Position numbers and translations under genes: made by a program. This document shows, in pieces, positions 7,676 through 44,939 of a stretch of 64,000 nt of DNA; the stretch's first letter is position 1; each line of letters opens with the position of its first letter. Under the pieces are notes generated by a model that saw only the letters and a list, made by a program, of their open reading frames with translations, was not told the DNA's origin and did no database searches. This DNA comes from Planctomycetota bacterium (lineage in GTDB: Bacteria > Planctomycetota > Planctomycetia > Pirellulales > Thermoguttaceae), in NCBI GenBank assembly GCA_029550925.1, contig JAKPGL010000007.1, positions 1 through 64,000 of the forward strand, read 5' to 3'.

Positions 7676-8884
7676 ATGAGTTCTGAAAAAAGCAGTTCCC
7701 CTGGGAATGCAAAGGCCCAGGGTTTTTCCACATTAGCGGTCCATGCGGGCGAGGCACGCCAAAAGCCCGGCAACTCCATGACCGATCCCATCTTCTGTAC
7801 GGCCACCTATACCTTCGAAAATACCCAGGCCGTCCTGGAATACCTGGACAAAAAGATTCCTCGAGAAGAATATGGCCGGTATGGGAACCCAATGGAAAAG
7901 GTCGTCGAACGGAAGTTGGCGGCGTTGGAGGGAGGCCAGTCGGCCATCCTGTTCGGCGCCGGCATGGCCGCCGTTGCTACCTTTCTATTGGCCAAGTTGC
8001 AGGCCGGCGACGAAATCGTGCTTTTTGATGAGTGCTATCATCGCACCCGGGAGTTTTGCGTGAAGGTATTGGGCCGATTCGGTGTGGTAACGCATCTGGT
8101 GCCGGCCTGCGACTACCAGAAGATGGAGGCCGTCATCACGCCGCGAACCAAACTCCTGTTGAGCGAATCGCCCACCAATCCGCACATGAGCGTGGTGGAT
8201 TTGGAGCGGTTTGCGGCCATTGGGCGTCGCCGGGGCATTGAAACGGCCATCGACGCCACGTTGGCCACTCCGTACAACCTTCGGCCTTTGGAGTGGGGGG
8301 TGGATTATGTGATCCATTCCTGCACCAAATACCTGGCTGGGCATAATGACATGTTGGGCGGGGTGATCGTCGGTCGGACCGAAGCCCTGGAGCCGGTGCG
8401 AAAACTTCGGGGCGTGATCGGCACGATCAGCGGGCCGCTCAGCATGTATCTATTGCTCCGGGGGCTGAAAACTTTTGCCCTTCGGATGGAGCGGCACAAC
8501 CAGAACGGCCTGGCCGTGGCCCAATTCCTGGCCGAGCATCCCCGGATCGAACGGGTCTATTATCCGGGCCTTCCGAGCCATCCGTATTACGAAGTGGCCC
8601 GGCGCACGATGCGAGGCTTTGGCGGCTTGGTTACTTTTTTGGTCAAAGACGCCGACGCCCAGCAGACGGCCCGGGTTGTCGATGCCCTTCGGCTGCCCCG
8701 GATCGGCCCCAGTTTCGGCGGCGTGGAATCCCTGGTCGAACAGCCCATCATCATGAGCTACCATGATTTTACCCCCGCCGAGCGCCGGGCGGTGGGCATC
8801 TACGACAACATGATCCGGCTATCTTGCGGCATCGAGGAGCCGGAAGACCTGATCGCCGACCTCCGCCAAGCCCTGGAAAAATAA
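7676..8884 (+). CDS. Cystathionine gamma-synthase/lyase family PLP enzyme
   Basis: 402 residues, the usual length for the Cys/Met metabolism PLP family. The motifs match: YGNP at 69-72, GAGMAA at 94-99, aspartate 193 in AIDATLATP, and the PLP lysine at 218 in SCTKYLAGH. It probably forms or cleaves C-S bonds in trans-sulfuration (cystathionine gamma-synthase, gamma-lyase or O-acylhomoserine sulfhydrylase). Sequence alone does not separate these activities. GAGG precedes the ATG. The gene stands alone and is followed by 1.4 kb of repeats. Confidence 0.9.
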   Translation: MSSEKSSSPGNAKAQGFSTLAVHAGEARQKPGNSMTDPIFCTATYTFENTQAVLEYLDKKIPREEYGRYGNPMEKVVERKLAALEGGQSAILFGAGMAAVATFLLAKLQAGDEIVLFDECYHRTREFCVKVLGRFGVVTHLVPACDYQKMEAVITPRTKLLLSESPTNPHMSVVDLERFAAIGRRRGIETAIDATLATPYNLRPLEWGVDYVIHSCTKYLAGHNDMLGGVIVGRTEALEPVRKLRGVIGTISGPLSMYLLLRGLKTFALRMERHNQNGLAVAQFLAEHPRIERVYYPGLPSHPYYEVARRTMRGFGGLVTFLVKDADAQQTARVVDALRLPRIGPSFGGVESLVEQPIIMSYHDFTPAERRAVGIYDNMIRLSCGIEEPEDLIADLRQALEK

Positions 8885-8886
8885 TC

Positions 8887-9109
8887 GTAATACTTCAGCC
8901 AAGTGAAGTAAGCCGCCGCTGCCCTGGCTGTCGAGAGGTCGGCCTCAGCAAAGCCGAGGGCGGGGGAGGGGGCTTTTATTGTCATTCCCGCGGAGGCGGG
9001 AATCCAGGCTTCTTTGTGCTGCCCACTTGTTCCCCTTCACCCTAACCCTCTCGACGACCAAGGGAGAGGGGAAGAAAAACAGTCCCACTCCATTCGGCTG
9101 GAATGTTAC
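8887..9109. repeat. Dispersed TIR-bounded element (type 2 interior)
   Basis: The left end at 8887-8908 (GTAATACTTCAGCC, then AAGTGAAG) and the right end at 9090-9109 (CCATTCGGCTGGAATGTTAC) are imperfect inverted repeats of the family consensus. The interior holds a dRS3-like palindrome but is unlike the interior of the 9177 element. It begins two bases after the stop of the PLP enzyme and could act as its terminator. Confidence 0.55.
8981..9008. repeat. dRS3-like palindrome
   Basis: GTCATTCCCGC, four bases, GCGGGAATCCAGG. It has the ATTCCC-N-GGGAAT core of the widespread dRS3-type repeats, and sits inside the 8887-9109 element. Confidence 0.7.
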
Positions 9110-9176
9110 TCCCTTTCTAAACGCTTCCTTTTGAAACCGTCGTAACTCGTGATGGTTCAATAGGTTAGCAAAGTTT

Positions 9177-9370
9177 GTAACATTTTAGCCGAATGCAGTA
9201 CCGTGTCACTGCCGCGCAAGCGCCCCATCTAGGCTTCTTGCAGCCTCTCCTTGGGAGGAATAACAACGTAGCCGCCTCATAGGACCCTGGATTCCCGCTA
9301 GAGCGGGAATGACCATTCTGGCAAATTTCGCCTTAAAATAAGCCTTCTTTGCATTCGGCTAAAATGTTAC
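9177..9370. mobile_element. MITE-like element with perfect 21-bp terminal inverted repeats
   Basis: The left end 9177-9197 and right end 9350-9370 are exact 21-bp inverted repeats (GTAACATTTTAGCCGAATGC plus A). The octamer CAAAGTTT directly flanks both sides (9169-9176 and 9371-9378), as expected of a target-site duplication. The 194-bp unit has no coding potential for a transposase and contains a dRS3-like palindrome (9288-9313). A GTAA terminus with 8-bp duplications fits IS66-family mobilisation, which is an inference. A related full copy lies at 44347-44540 and a truncated one at 41364-41531. Confidence 0.8.
9288..9313. repeat. dRS3-like palindrome inside the MITE
   Basis: CTGGATTCCCGC, TAGA, GCGGGAATGAC: the same palindrome as elsewhere but in the opposite orientation. 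It forms part of the interior of the 9177-9370 element. Confidence 0.7.
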
Positions 9371-9378
9371 CAAAGTTT

Positions 9379-9644
9379 TTTCTGAAAGTTCCTCATCGCA
9401 CTTTTTTCTTTTTCTCATTGCGGCCCTAGCCATCCCACCCAGAGGATTGTTTGGCCCCCTTGGTTCCTCATCTCGCTCTTTCTCTTTGGACCCCTTAAAT
9501 GGGAGCGTGCTGCCCCCATGTTGTTTCCCTTATTCCCCAAAAATTTTTTCCACATGCTTGACAACGCCATGGGAAGGTAAGTACGATAGAAAAGGTATCG
9601 ACAATGCATAATGTAAACGATTTCCGGTGATCCCTATTTCCCAG
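9379..9644. other. Intergenic DNA with no recognisable feature
   Basis: This spacer of about 265 bp lies between two repeat elements. I see no supported gene or RNA in it. Confidence 0.4.
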
Positions 9645-9890
9645 GAAACATTTCAGCCGAATGGAGTGGGTCTATTTATTCCCTCTCCCCTGGCGCCATA
9701 AGGATAGGAAGAGGAAAAAATTGGGGGAAGCAAGGATAAGGCGGGTCCCTAACAGGCAAGGAAGGTACCTTCGTCCGGCTATAGCGTTTGCTTAGCTGGG
9801 CTATGCGACGGTAGGAAGAGGCGGAAATACAAGACCACATCCATGGGGATGAGAAGAAGAGATCCTCCTGCATTGGGCTGAAATAGTGAA
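9645..9890. repeat. Dispersed TIR-bounded element
   Basis: The left end at 9645-9666 (GAAACATTTCAGCCGAATGG) and the right end at 9868-9888 (CTGCATTGGGCTGAAATAGTG) are imperfect inverted repeats of the family consensus. The interior is unlike the 9177 element. No flanking duplication is evident. Confidence 0.5.
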
Positions 9891-9911
9891 TAGATTGACT
9901 GGTTCCTTACC

Positions 9912-10150
9912 AAGGACGGGACGTACACTGGCGGTGTTACGCTCGGCGCTGCGGGAGGCCCGATGGGGGCAACGCGGCCAGCTTTGATGGGTGCGGCTAT
10001 GTTCAATTGCCGGGTACCTGGGGCGGCTCTGGCTGGTCGGCGCTTACCATTGAGGCATGGGTCAACACCGCCATTATGGATGATTTCCAGACCATTGTAG
10101 GTACGCCCGACGGGGGCTTCGCCCATTTCCCGTTGCATACGAGGGGCCTC
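9912..10150 (+). pseudogene. Fragment of a LamG (concanavalin A-like) exported protein gene
   Basis: One frame near 9918-9957 reads YTGGVTLGAAG. After a frameshift near 9960 another frame continues as DGGNAASFDGCGYVQLPG, then SALTIEAWVNT, ending near 10140. This is the start of a LamG domain, as in large planctomycete exported proteins. There is no start codon, no full domain and a frame break, so it is a gene remnant. It lies just upstream of the GH116-like gene but is not fused to it. A similar LamG domain is intact in the gene at 36824-38902. Confidence 0.65.
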
Positions 10151-10292
10151 TGGCGTGTACGCTACCGGGAGAAGTGGGAGGCGAGAACTCAACTGGTTTC
10201 GCCGGCCGGGGCCGAGTTGTGTCGGCCTTCGCAACCCATCAGATTAAAAACAGTTCAGAGGTTCTAGTGGACATGTAGGAAAGGAGACGACG

Positions 10293-12509
10293 ATGATGCA
10301 GACGATGTTGTTGGCAGCGATGTTGTTTCTTCCCGGCGGAGTGCCTCCGGCATGGTTCGATGCCTCGGCAGATCCTCAGCGGTTGCAAACGGTTCGGGTG
10401 GAGGGGTTGAGCATTCCGGTGCCTGGTACGGTTTATGGTCCGAAGCTGGAACAGGGCGGGATGCCCTTGGGCGGCCTGGGAACAGGGTATTTATGTCTGG
10501 ACCCGGACGGCCGGTTGGGGAAATGTTCGATTTTCAATCGACTCCCTCTTCCCCTGGTGCTCGGTCAGCCGTGTTTTTACTTGAAGCTTGGCGATCGCCG
10601 CCTGACGTTGGCTACGCCTAAAGACGGCCAAGGCGATGCAAAAACAGTCCACTATTTCGGGCATTTTCCGGTGGCGGATGTTCGCTTTGAACTGGCAGAG
10701 CCTCTTCGGGTAGAGATTCGGGCTTACAGCCCGTTTTTGCCGGGCGATGCCAATGAGAGCAATGTACCGGCGGCCGTTTTCCTGGTGCGGATAACCAATC
10801 TGGGCAACGAGCCTCAAAAAGGCAGTGTGATCTTTTCTCCAGGTGGGTTTCCTCAGGGCCAGGGCGAACAGTTTTCCCCTGGTCCCGGCTGGGCAGGTAT
10901 CCAGGTGCGTCATCCCCCGGTGGATCGGTTGCCCTCGTGGGTAGTGAGTACGTATGCATTGGCGGTGGAGAAGGGATCAGCGGAGGCGGCTGCTTCTGGG
11001 GCGCAGGCAGAGGCCCATTTCGAGCTAAAACCTGCTGAGGCCGCCGTGGTTCGCTTCATCCTTGCCTGGCATCAGCCGTTTCTCCGGGAAGTAAGCCGGG
11101 TAGAAAAACATCAATACGCCGAGCGGTTCGCCGACGCCAAGGCCGTGGCCGCCGCAGCCGTTCAGCGCCACGAGCAATGGCTCCGACGAGTATTGGCCTG
11201 GCAGGAGGTGATCTACGGAGCGGAACTGCCCGACTGGCTCAAAGAGGCACTGGTCAACGTATTATCTACCTTGACGAAAAATTCGGTTTGGCTGGCCCGA
11301 ACCCGGGCAGATGACTGGTGGGACCAGGAGGGGCTTTTCTTGGTGAGCGAAAGTTTCGCCACGTGTTCGCTCATAGAGACGATGCCTTGCCGATTCTTCG
11401 GCCATTGGCCTACGTTGTTCTTCTTCCCGGAACTGGAACGGACCACCTTGAAGGCCCTTCGTTATTTCCAGCTTCGGGACGGCCAGCCGCCGCATTGCTT
11501 CGGGATAGGGTTTGCCATCCGGGACCCCCGGTACCATTGCCAACATACCGCCGGGGCCGGGGAATACCCCCAGATCATTTACCGCTACTATCTCCGCACT
11601 GGCGACGAGGCGTTTTTGAAAGATTTTTGGCCCTCTGCCCGTGATAGTCTGAATTTTATGCTCTGGCTGGATCGGGATGGGGATGGACTGGTCGAAGATC
11701 ATCCCCATACAGTCGAAGGAGAATATTGGCCCGCGAACAATCCTATGGACAATTGGCCTTTCTACGGCGCCAGCAGTTACACCGCCGGCAAAGGGTTGGC
11801 CTCCTTGATCTGCGGCATCAAGATGGCAGAACTAGTAGGCGACCAAGCCCAGGCTGCCCGGTGGCGAAAGGTGCTCCAACAGGGCCAAAAAAGTTACGAG
11901 GAAAAGCTATGGACCGGCAGCTTCTACCGGACCTACAACGACCCAGCTACCGGCCGACGTAATGACTCCTCTCTGGCCGCCCAACTTCACAGCGTCTGGT
12001 GTACGCGTGTTTTAGGCTTGGAAGACCCGCTGCCCCAGGACCGGATTCAGAAATCGCTGGACAGCATCGCCCGGTTGAACATACCGGCTTCGCGATTCGG
12101 CATGGTGGACGCTGTTTTTGCGGACGGCAAGCCCTGCATCGAAGGCGGTCCGGGCGGCGATCGGATATGGTCTCGCGACATCTTCATCCAGTGCAACGCC
12201 ACGGCCGCTATGGTCTTTATGTATCACGGCCGGCGTCAGGAAGGCGAAAAGGCGGCCCAGACCATGCTCGATACCCTCTTCCGCGGCCCGCATGCGATGC
12301 CCTGGTCGCACCCGTGCGGAATTAACTCCCTGACGGGTGCCACGACCCACGGCCATGATTACTACGATCACATGGTGATCTGGACGTATCCGCTTGCTTT
12401 GGCAGGCCAGGACATTCGAGCGGCCATCGCCCCCGGAGGATTGATCGACCGGATTCTTCGGGCAGCCGCCCAAGGGAAATCTCCAAGCAGCGGCCCTTCC
12501 TCGCCTTGA
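10293..12509 (+). CDS. GH116/DUF608-like glycoside hydrolase, probably exported
   Basis: 738 residues with a hydrophobic N-terminus (MLLAAMLFLPGG) that may be a short signal peptide. The N-terminal domain begins with GGMPLGGLGTGY, the typical opening of the GH116/DUF608 (bile-acid beta-glucosidase type) family. The C-terminal (alpha/alpha)6 part includes ETMPCRFFGHWPTLFFFPELE near residue 360 and MDNWPFYG near 484, where the family's catalytic Glu and Asp are expected. GGAAAGGAG lies just before the ATG. It likely removes beta-linked glucose or xylose from glycans. The Asp and Glu assignments are by position only, and the substrate is unknown. Confidence 0.8.
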   Translation: MMQTMLLAAMLFLPGGVPPAWFDASADPQRLQTVRVEGLSIPVPGTVYGPKLEQGGMPLGGLGTGYLCLDPDGRLGKCSIFNRLPLPLVLGQPCFYLKLGDRRLTLATPKDGQGDAKTVHYFGHFPVADVRFELAEPLRVEIRAYSPFLPGDANESNVPAAVFLVRITNLGNEPQKGSVIFSPGGFPQGQGEQFSPGPGWAGIQVRHPPVDRLPSWVVSTYALAVEKGSAEAAASGAQAEAHFELKPAEAAVVRFILAWHQPFLREVSRVEKHQYAERFADAKAVAAAAVQRHEQWLRRVLAWQEVIYGAELPDWLKEALVNVLSTLTKNSVWLARTRADDWWDQEGLFLVSESFATCSLIETMPCRFFGHWPTLFFFPELERTTLKALRYFQLRDGQPPHCFGIGFAIRDPRYHCQHTAGAGEYPQIIYRYYLRTGDEAFLKDFWPSARDSLNFMLWLDRDGDGLVEDHPHTVEGEYWPANNPMDNWPFYGASSYTAGKGLASLICGIKMAELVGDQAQAARWRKVLQQGQKSYEEKLWTGSFYRTYNDPATGRRNDSSLAAQLHSVWCTRVLGLEDPLPQDRIQKSLDSIARLNIPASRFGMVDAVFADGKPCIEGGPGGDRIWSRDIFIQCNATAAMVFMYHGRRQEGEKAAQTMLDTLFRGPHAMPWSHPCGINSLTGATTHGHDYYDHMVIWTYPLALAGQDIRAAIAPGGLIDRILRAAAQGKSPSSGPSSP

Positions 12510-34367: not shown

Positions 34368-34440
34368 CAATGCCAACCCGCGGCCAATTTCACCCGGCAA
34401 GAAATGGGCAGGTTCTATTTCAGCCGAACGAAGGAGCTCC

Positions 34441-34488
34441 ATTGAGAAGGAGCTCAACTGAGAAGGAGGTCGATTGAGAAGGAAATCC
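34441..34488. repeat. Three 16-bp tandem repeats
   Basis: ATTGAGAAGGAGCTCA, ACTGAGAAGGAGGTCG and ATTGAGAAGGAAATCC follow one another, with a partial unit before them. Confidence 0.65.
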
Positions 34489-34495
34489 ATAAATT

Positions 34496-34523
34496 GTCAT
34501 TCCCGCGCAGGCGGGAATCCAGG
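34496..34523. repeat. dRS3-like palindrome
   Basis: GTCATTCCCGC, GCAG, GCGGGAATCCAGG. Nearly identical to the copy at 8981-9008. Confidence 0.7.
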
Positions 34524-34692
34524 CTTCTGTGTGTCTGCTTCCGTAGGGGAAAATATCAGAGGAGCCGATTCACGGGCGCCTGGATCGGGCGTTTTCACAG
34601 AGATGACAAGACGGGGCCTCACCATTCGGCTGAAATGTTACAAAGCGGCATTATTGCGGCCGTTGCACCGGGCTGGGCTTGAGGGCGAAAGG

Positions 34693-44202: not shown

Positions 44203-44939
44203 TTGCTATACTCCTCCGGATCACAATACAGAAAAATATGGCAACGGTCCGATGTTCCAGGAAGTGTTATCCCTAACGTAAACATATACTATAACCTTAT
44301 TATAATCTATTTGCCAGAATAAAAAGACGAAAATTTTAGCATTTTTGTAACATTTTAGCCGAATGCAGACCTTGTCGCTGCCGCACAATCGTCCAATCTA
44401 GGCTTCTTGCAGCCTCTCCTTGGGAGGAATAACAATGTAGTCGCCTCAGAGGACCCTGGGTTGAGAGCTTTCGCGGGAATGACAATTCTGGCAAATTTCG
44501 CCCCAAAATAAGCCTCCTTTGCATTCGGATGAAATGTTACGATGTTTCGAGGTTTTTTTCGGAGATATTTTATAAAAGCAGGCGTTTCCCGCAAAATAGC
44601 CAGGCGGGTTGTATCCAAGCGAACAGGATTGGGCCAAGATGTTCTGTTTGTTAGACTGTACTTTATCCTATCCTGAACGGTATCACCCCTCAAGCAGGCC
44701 AACAAAGGGAGGTGCTAGAGTGTTCTGAGAGTTGACCGCCTTGGCCGCCCTGGTTGGAGGTCTGCCTTGTTTATGGGGGATAGGCCGACGCCGAGGACAT
44801 ACGAAAAACAAGAGTTTTTCTTAGGTTCGACCGTTTCGATCTTAACTCTTGTCTCGTTCCTGTTGCTATCCGTCCGCCCAGCGGTTTGGGATATAAGCAG
44901 CGTCAAAGTGAATCCAAACCTCGAAAAAAGGGATCATCT
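44203..44939. other. Divergent intergenic region with a full MITE copy
   Basis: 737 bp. It holds the element at 44347-44540. The remaining stretch 44541-44939 contains no supported gene and should carry the promoter of the xseA gene. Confidence 0.45.
44347..44540. mobile_element. Second full copy of the MITE-like element
   Basis: The left end at 44347-44367 is the same perfect GTAACATTTTAGCCGAATGC plus A; the right end at 44520-44540 (TGCATTCGGATGAAATGTTA plus C) differs at two positions. The 194-bp length equals that of the 9177 copy, and the interior is clearly homologous (GGCTTCTTGCAGCCTCTCCT, TTGGGAGGAATAACAA). The flanking octamers are not identical, so any target duplication has decayed. 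Confidence 0.75.

Follow-up and report, generated by a model that had tools for sequence, protein, structure and literature searches.

The window analysed here is a stretch of 64,000 nucleotides from the draft genome of a Planctomycetota bacterium. Between two co-directional ORFs (7676-8884 and 10293-12509), it contains a non-coding unit of 194 bp at positions 9177-9370. The initial annotation had described perfect 21-bp inverted ends and an 8-bp target-site duplication (TSD), CAAAGTTT, on both sides of this unit, and direct reading of the sequence confirmed this. The left TSD occupies positions 9169-9176 and the right TSD positions 9371-9378. The left terminal inverted repeat (TIR), GTAACATTTTAGCCGAATGCA, lies on the forward strand at 9177-9197 and consists of the same letters as the start of an IS66 element on another contig of this genome, C224. 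The right TIR (9350-9370, reverse strand) is its exact reverse complement. As had been proposed, the unit cannot encode a transposase, since the ORF list of the window has no ORF of at least 60 aa within 9177-9370. An Rfam scan of positions 8900-10300 yielded no RNA family and only a single sub-threshold match.

Two REP-like sequences are found between the ends. The left block, GTCACTGCCGCGCAAGCGCCCCATCTAGG (9205-9233, forward strand), is degenerate in the window copy, whereas some sister copies have a perfect palindrome of the CGTC type there. The right REP, GTCATTCCCGCTCTAGCGGGAATCCAG, at 9287-9313 (C167) on the reverse strand, is perfect in the window copy; it has an 8-bp stem and a 4-base loop and is inverted with respect to the left block.

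The window holds further units of this kind. A second full-length member of the family, without a matching duplication, lies on the forward strand at 44347-44540. Units at 8887-9109 (ends with 5 and 2 mismatches, REP at 8981-9007), at 9645-9889 (ends with 2 and 5 mismatches) and at 34412-34641 have ends of the same kind and are older and diverged. The unit at 8887-9109 begins 3 bases past the stop codon of the ORF at 7676-8884.

Copy number, target sites and an empty site

The genome search with the 21-bp end that the initial annotation had recommended was carried out with up to 2 mismatches allowed. The end was found at 308 places (157 + 151) in the 4.9-Mb draft genome, as opposed to none (0 + 0) for the reversed pattern, which corresponds to roughly 150 copies. 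There were 39 other full or near-full matches to the whole unit, with identities of 83-93%, and many ends in the genome are orphaned. The draft consists of 233 contigs, and several copies lie at contig ends.

From approximately 560 kb of contigs and a number of individual loci, 61 end-bounded units of 80-300 bp were extracted. Their commonest length was 194-196 bp, and 37 of the 61 were full-length members of the family. The 8-bp duplication was perfect in 20 of these 37 copies, had 1-2 mismatches in five and at least 3 mismatches in twelve. Recombination or joins made in the draft assembly could account for the 12 copies without a recognisable duplication. The duplications have an A+T content of 62%, compared to 43% for the window. 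Two hybrid units (L085:13113-13319 and L086:340-546) combine one end of the GTAACATTTTAGCC type with another of the GTAATTATTCAGCC / GTAATTGTTCAGCC type, the latter being followed by related subterminal sequence.

Comparison with two genomes of the same genus, G001 and G002, revealed an empty site. The copy on contig C14 (L035:1501-1696, TSD GAAAAACC) has flanks that are orthologous in both genomes. The orthologous locus in G002 lacks it and has a single copy of the target, GGAAAACC. When the element and one duplication are removed from the C14 sequence, its flanks align to G002 without a gap across the junction (CCAAGGAAAACCGGACTTTTTCT in G002 versus CCAAGAAAAACC-element-GAAAAACCAGACTCTTTCT in this genome). 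G001 also lacks the element, with a right side that aligns less well. The empty site that the initial annotation had suggested looking for was thus found for the C14 copy, in a congener of another species, and not for the window copy. At the window locus, the upstream gene is present in G001 and G002, and the intergenic DNA is not alignable. A junction match of locus L113 in G002 was discarded, as it is a related repeat and not a clean empty site. With its length of 194 bp, its non-coding sequence, TIRs, constant 8-bp TSD, many copies and an empty site in relatives, the unit has the attributes of a MITE.

Ends shared with an IS66 element

Ends that start with GTAA and target duplications of 8 bp are traits of the IS66 family, and the initial annotation had therefore suggested an IS66-type transposase as the mobiliser. 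This suggestion gained support from an IS66 transposase gene at C224:3454-4632, which scores 91.8 bits with PF03050 and 196 bits (cut-off 180) with NF033517, the equivalog model for IS66 transposases. The ORF starts at L076:997, which is 65 bp past L076:932, where a perfect 21-bp end begins. On this evidence, the MITE would be mobilised in trans by the IS66 enzyme. The first 60 bases of the element are common to the IS66 copies on contigs C224, C149 and C123, while the flanks differ, and so the IS66 element has been inserted at least three times. The draft genome contains no IS66 element assembled with both of its ends: contig C224 breaks off within the gene, and on C232 the 3' portion of an IS66 gene precedes a right end with 3 mismatches, the sole right end of an IS66 copy seen in this genome. 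The copy on C149 (L105:1-619) is internally deleted; its matches cover residues 1-88 and 323-393 and are separated by other sequence.

Genes that do lie between two ends of this type were found in two distantly related genomes, G099 and G066, in units of 1,677 and 1,063 bp, respectively. The matched parts of these IS66 genes are 41% (G099) and 56% (G066) identical to that of this genome, and neither element has a matching duplication at its flanks. The proposed search for an IS66 gene bounded by the same ends thus gave genes between ends of similar type in G099 and G066 and, in this genome, incomplete copies with the C224 gene behind a perfect end. In G034, G001 and G002, no homologue of this transposase was detected at E ≤ 1e-20, although the ends are present. 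In genome G067 (L124), an IS66 gene with 82% identity is joined upstream to what appears to be part of a different transposase gene, and only its right end is recognisable. A second IS66 fragment in this genome, on contig C4 (L078), was rejected as a partner, its ends resembling GTAACCGTTCACGCC by eye. Its IS66-like gene at about 1370-2140 has an open but internally shortened frame of 244 aa.

The unit resembles insertion sequences of the IS66 family (PF03050 / NF033517) in its GTAA-starting ends and its 8-bp duplications, and it has the 21-bp end of the resident IS66. In contrast to them, it comprises only 194 bp and no gene. It has only about 23 bp per end in common with the C224-type IS66 found here and is thus no plain deletion derivative of that copy. 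Like the bacterial MITEs RUP, NEMIS/Correia, Nezha and MITEPsy1, the unit is short and non-coding and has inverted ends, target duplications and a resident transposase; unlike them, it has IS66-type ends and contains REP pairs. No IS66-derived MITE family was found in the open-access literature searched (a corpus that excludes ISfinder), and a string search of the literature with GCGGGAATGAC returned unrelated papers only. The combination of an IS66-type MITE family and roughly 150 copies was likewise not found in this literature.

Inverted REP pairs between the ends

By its letters, the interior of the unit is an inverted pair of REPs of the CGTC-1/dRS3 type, a feature that the initial annotation did not contain; nor did it mention that the interiors of the family are mosaic. 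Many copies have the sequence GTCATTCCCGC-NNNN-GCGGGAATCYAG near each end, in opposite orientations. CGTC-1 REPs are defined by a CGTC or TGTC tag, an 8-bp stem beginning with AT, a 4-base loop and a CCA tail, and their Neisseria members have been equated with dRS3 (PMC3733652). The interior palindromes show these characteristics, with T preceding GTC in the family copies, and they also resemble CGTC-1 and dRS3 in forming inverted pairs. What differs is their enclosure by IS66-type ends. In Halothiobacillus neapolitanus, CGTC-1 dimers are likewise placed within a longer inverted repeat, a palindrome of 41 bp, but the sequence around the dimers bears no relation to GTAACATTTTAGCC, and it has not been linked to a transposase there (PMC3733652). 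Planctomycetes are absent from the phyla listed there as having CGTC repeats.

The REP pattern GTCAYTSCCGCNNNNGCGGSARTCYAG occurs at 116 places in the genome, mostly with the stem ATTCCCGC, and the reversed control at none. Among 38 REPs in regions of this genome that had been chosen for their ends, 31 lie inside end-bounded units, six beside a single end and one elsewhere. A set free of this bias comprised the first 30 matches to the REP pattern, taken regardless of any ends. Inward-facing ends were present on both sides of 15 of them, on one side of nine and on neither side of six. For 111 control positions 600-900 bp away from REPs, the corresponding numbers were 1, 12 and 98. In the congeners, the proportion of REPs inside end-bounded units (9 of 25) is lower than in this genome.

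It has been reported that CGTC REPs have no dedicated transposase, that none is flanked by them and that various transposases may move them; the question of their mover was left open (PMC3733652). The IS66-type ends provide a concrete and testable carrier for CGTC-1 REPs in this lineage, because most of the REPs tested sit between or beside such ends, and the family concerned shows 8-bp duplications and has an empty site. Judging from their position, the majority of these REPs would have been dispersed in this genome as MITE cargo.

Matched as well as mixed arms occur for the stem variants TTCCCGC/GCGGGAA and CTGCCGC/GCGGCAG, and selection for stem pairing is not claimed. A stable hairpin as a conserved function was also considered and dropped, the z values being 0.2 for the window copy and +1.2 to -9.2 for other copies of this genome.

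Mode of dispersal, age and wider occurrence

We regard the window unit as very probably a copy of a high-copy non-autonomous MITE that is moved in trans by a resident IS66-family DDE transposase, with a few elements encoding the enzyme. The IS66 transposase would recognise the roughly 21-bp GTAAC...GCA ends and insert the unit at sites that are AT-rich and mostly intergenic, leaving an 8-bp duplication. The inverted pair of CGTC-1/dRS3-type REPs would thereby be dispersed between the ends, and recombination among the copies would then probably shuffle the interiors. While the mechanism, a MITE with IS66-type ends, is ordinary, the content is unusual, with REPs as cargo and with interiors that differ across genera.

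The inverted pairs of REP palindromes inside the unit could instead indicate a REP/REPIN-type element whose mover is a RAYT (Y1 tyrosine transposase) and whose GTAAC ends are incidental. However, 8-bp duplications and 21-bp ends are not among the features of RAYT-moved REPs, and here both are present, with ends common to a DDE-type IS66 element. Ends of the same type surround different interiors elsewhere, which makes the ends and not the palindromes the shared unit, and no transposase gene with flanking CGTC REPs is described in PMC3733652. We therefore give a RAYT as the mover very little credence. It is also highly improbable that the unit is an immobile functional element, such as a terminator, an RNA hairpin or a protein-binding site, that is fixed in the intergenic region by selection. 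The window copy does lie between genes, and many copies fold better than shuffled sequences, down to z -9, but the window copy itself folds no better than shuffled sequence, the interiors vary by 11% compared to about 4-5% for the ends, and the target duplications and the empty site show insertion.

The age of the insertions was assessed with 25 full-length copies that have recognisable duplications. Their duplication pairs differ at 7 of 200 positions (3.5%), whereas the ends deviate from the consensus by 4.6% and the interiors by 11%. If all of the interior divergence had arisen after insertion, approximately 4 of the 25 duplications would be expected to be perfect, but 20 are. Hence, either diverse sources were mobilised or interiors were exchanged among copies, and the insertions are younger than the variety carried in the interiors. 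The mean pairwise identity of the full-length interiors, only 81%, and the many orphan ends would also suit a dead relic, i.e. copies that were all inserted long ago and whose ends were kept alike by gene conversion. This is quite unlikely in view of the excess of perfect duplications, and conversion between copies at different sites cannot restore target duplications. For the window copy, the earlier description as recently inserted holds for the intact TIRs and TSD; of 152 interior positions, 12 deviate from the consensus of the family, and the family-wide variety is older than the insertion.

Among 29 two-state sites in the interiors, all four combinations occur in 346 of the 406 pairs, which points to mosaic interiors, with recurrent mutation adding to the count. 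Draft-assembly joins could be behind part of the mosaicism and part of the copies that lack duplications. That these two features are artefacts of the assembly altogether and do not reflect recombination is a real but lesser possibility. The fragmentation of the draft and the copies at contig ends speak for it, as do the copies on C8 and C182, which have a near-identical right flank, the same duplication and 12 left-flank bases in common, while their interiors and the sequence beyond those 12 bases are different. On the other hand, copies that lie far from contig ends and have perfect duplications show mosaic combinations as well.

A wider search across the order detected ends of this type in 32 of the 246 genomes sampled, and the reversed control gave hardly any matches. 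Their number is high in this genus and in G047, which belongs to a different family. In both G034 and G047, end-bounded units have 8-bp TSDs, but their interiors are quite unlike those of this genome and in many cases palindromic. Between ends of the same type, there are CGTC REPs in the present genome, GCCGCCGGGTTTATCCCGGCG hairpins in G034 and CGAAATCCGAA and CCACGGATTGACACGG repeats in G047, and these differing interiors span several genera, which belong to two or more families of the order. We tentatively suggest, though with more doubt than conviction, that IS66-type ends are a general carrier for palindromic repeats and that the widespread orphan REP-like repeats spread as cargo of DDE-MITEs, without a REP-specific enzyme. 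Among named contigs, the exact end was found only in the Planctomycetota MAG casp40-mb.109, in which one unit has a perfect 8-bp duplication. This occurrence and the appearance of the proteins encoded in the window both suggested a planctomycete host. Ends of the same type also enclose other repeats in the units of G034 and G047 (L162-L180), for example CCACGGATTGACACGGATG at L175:11026-11211.
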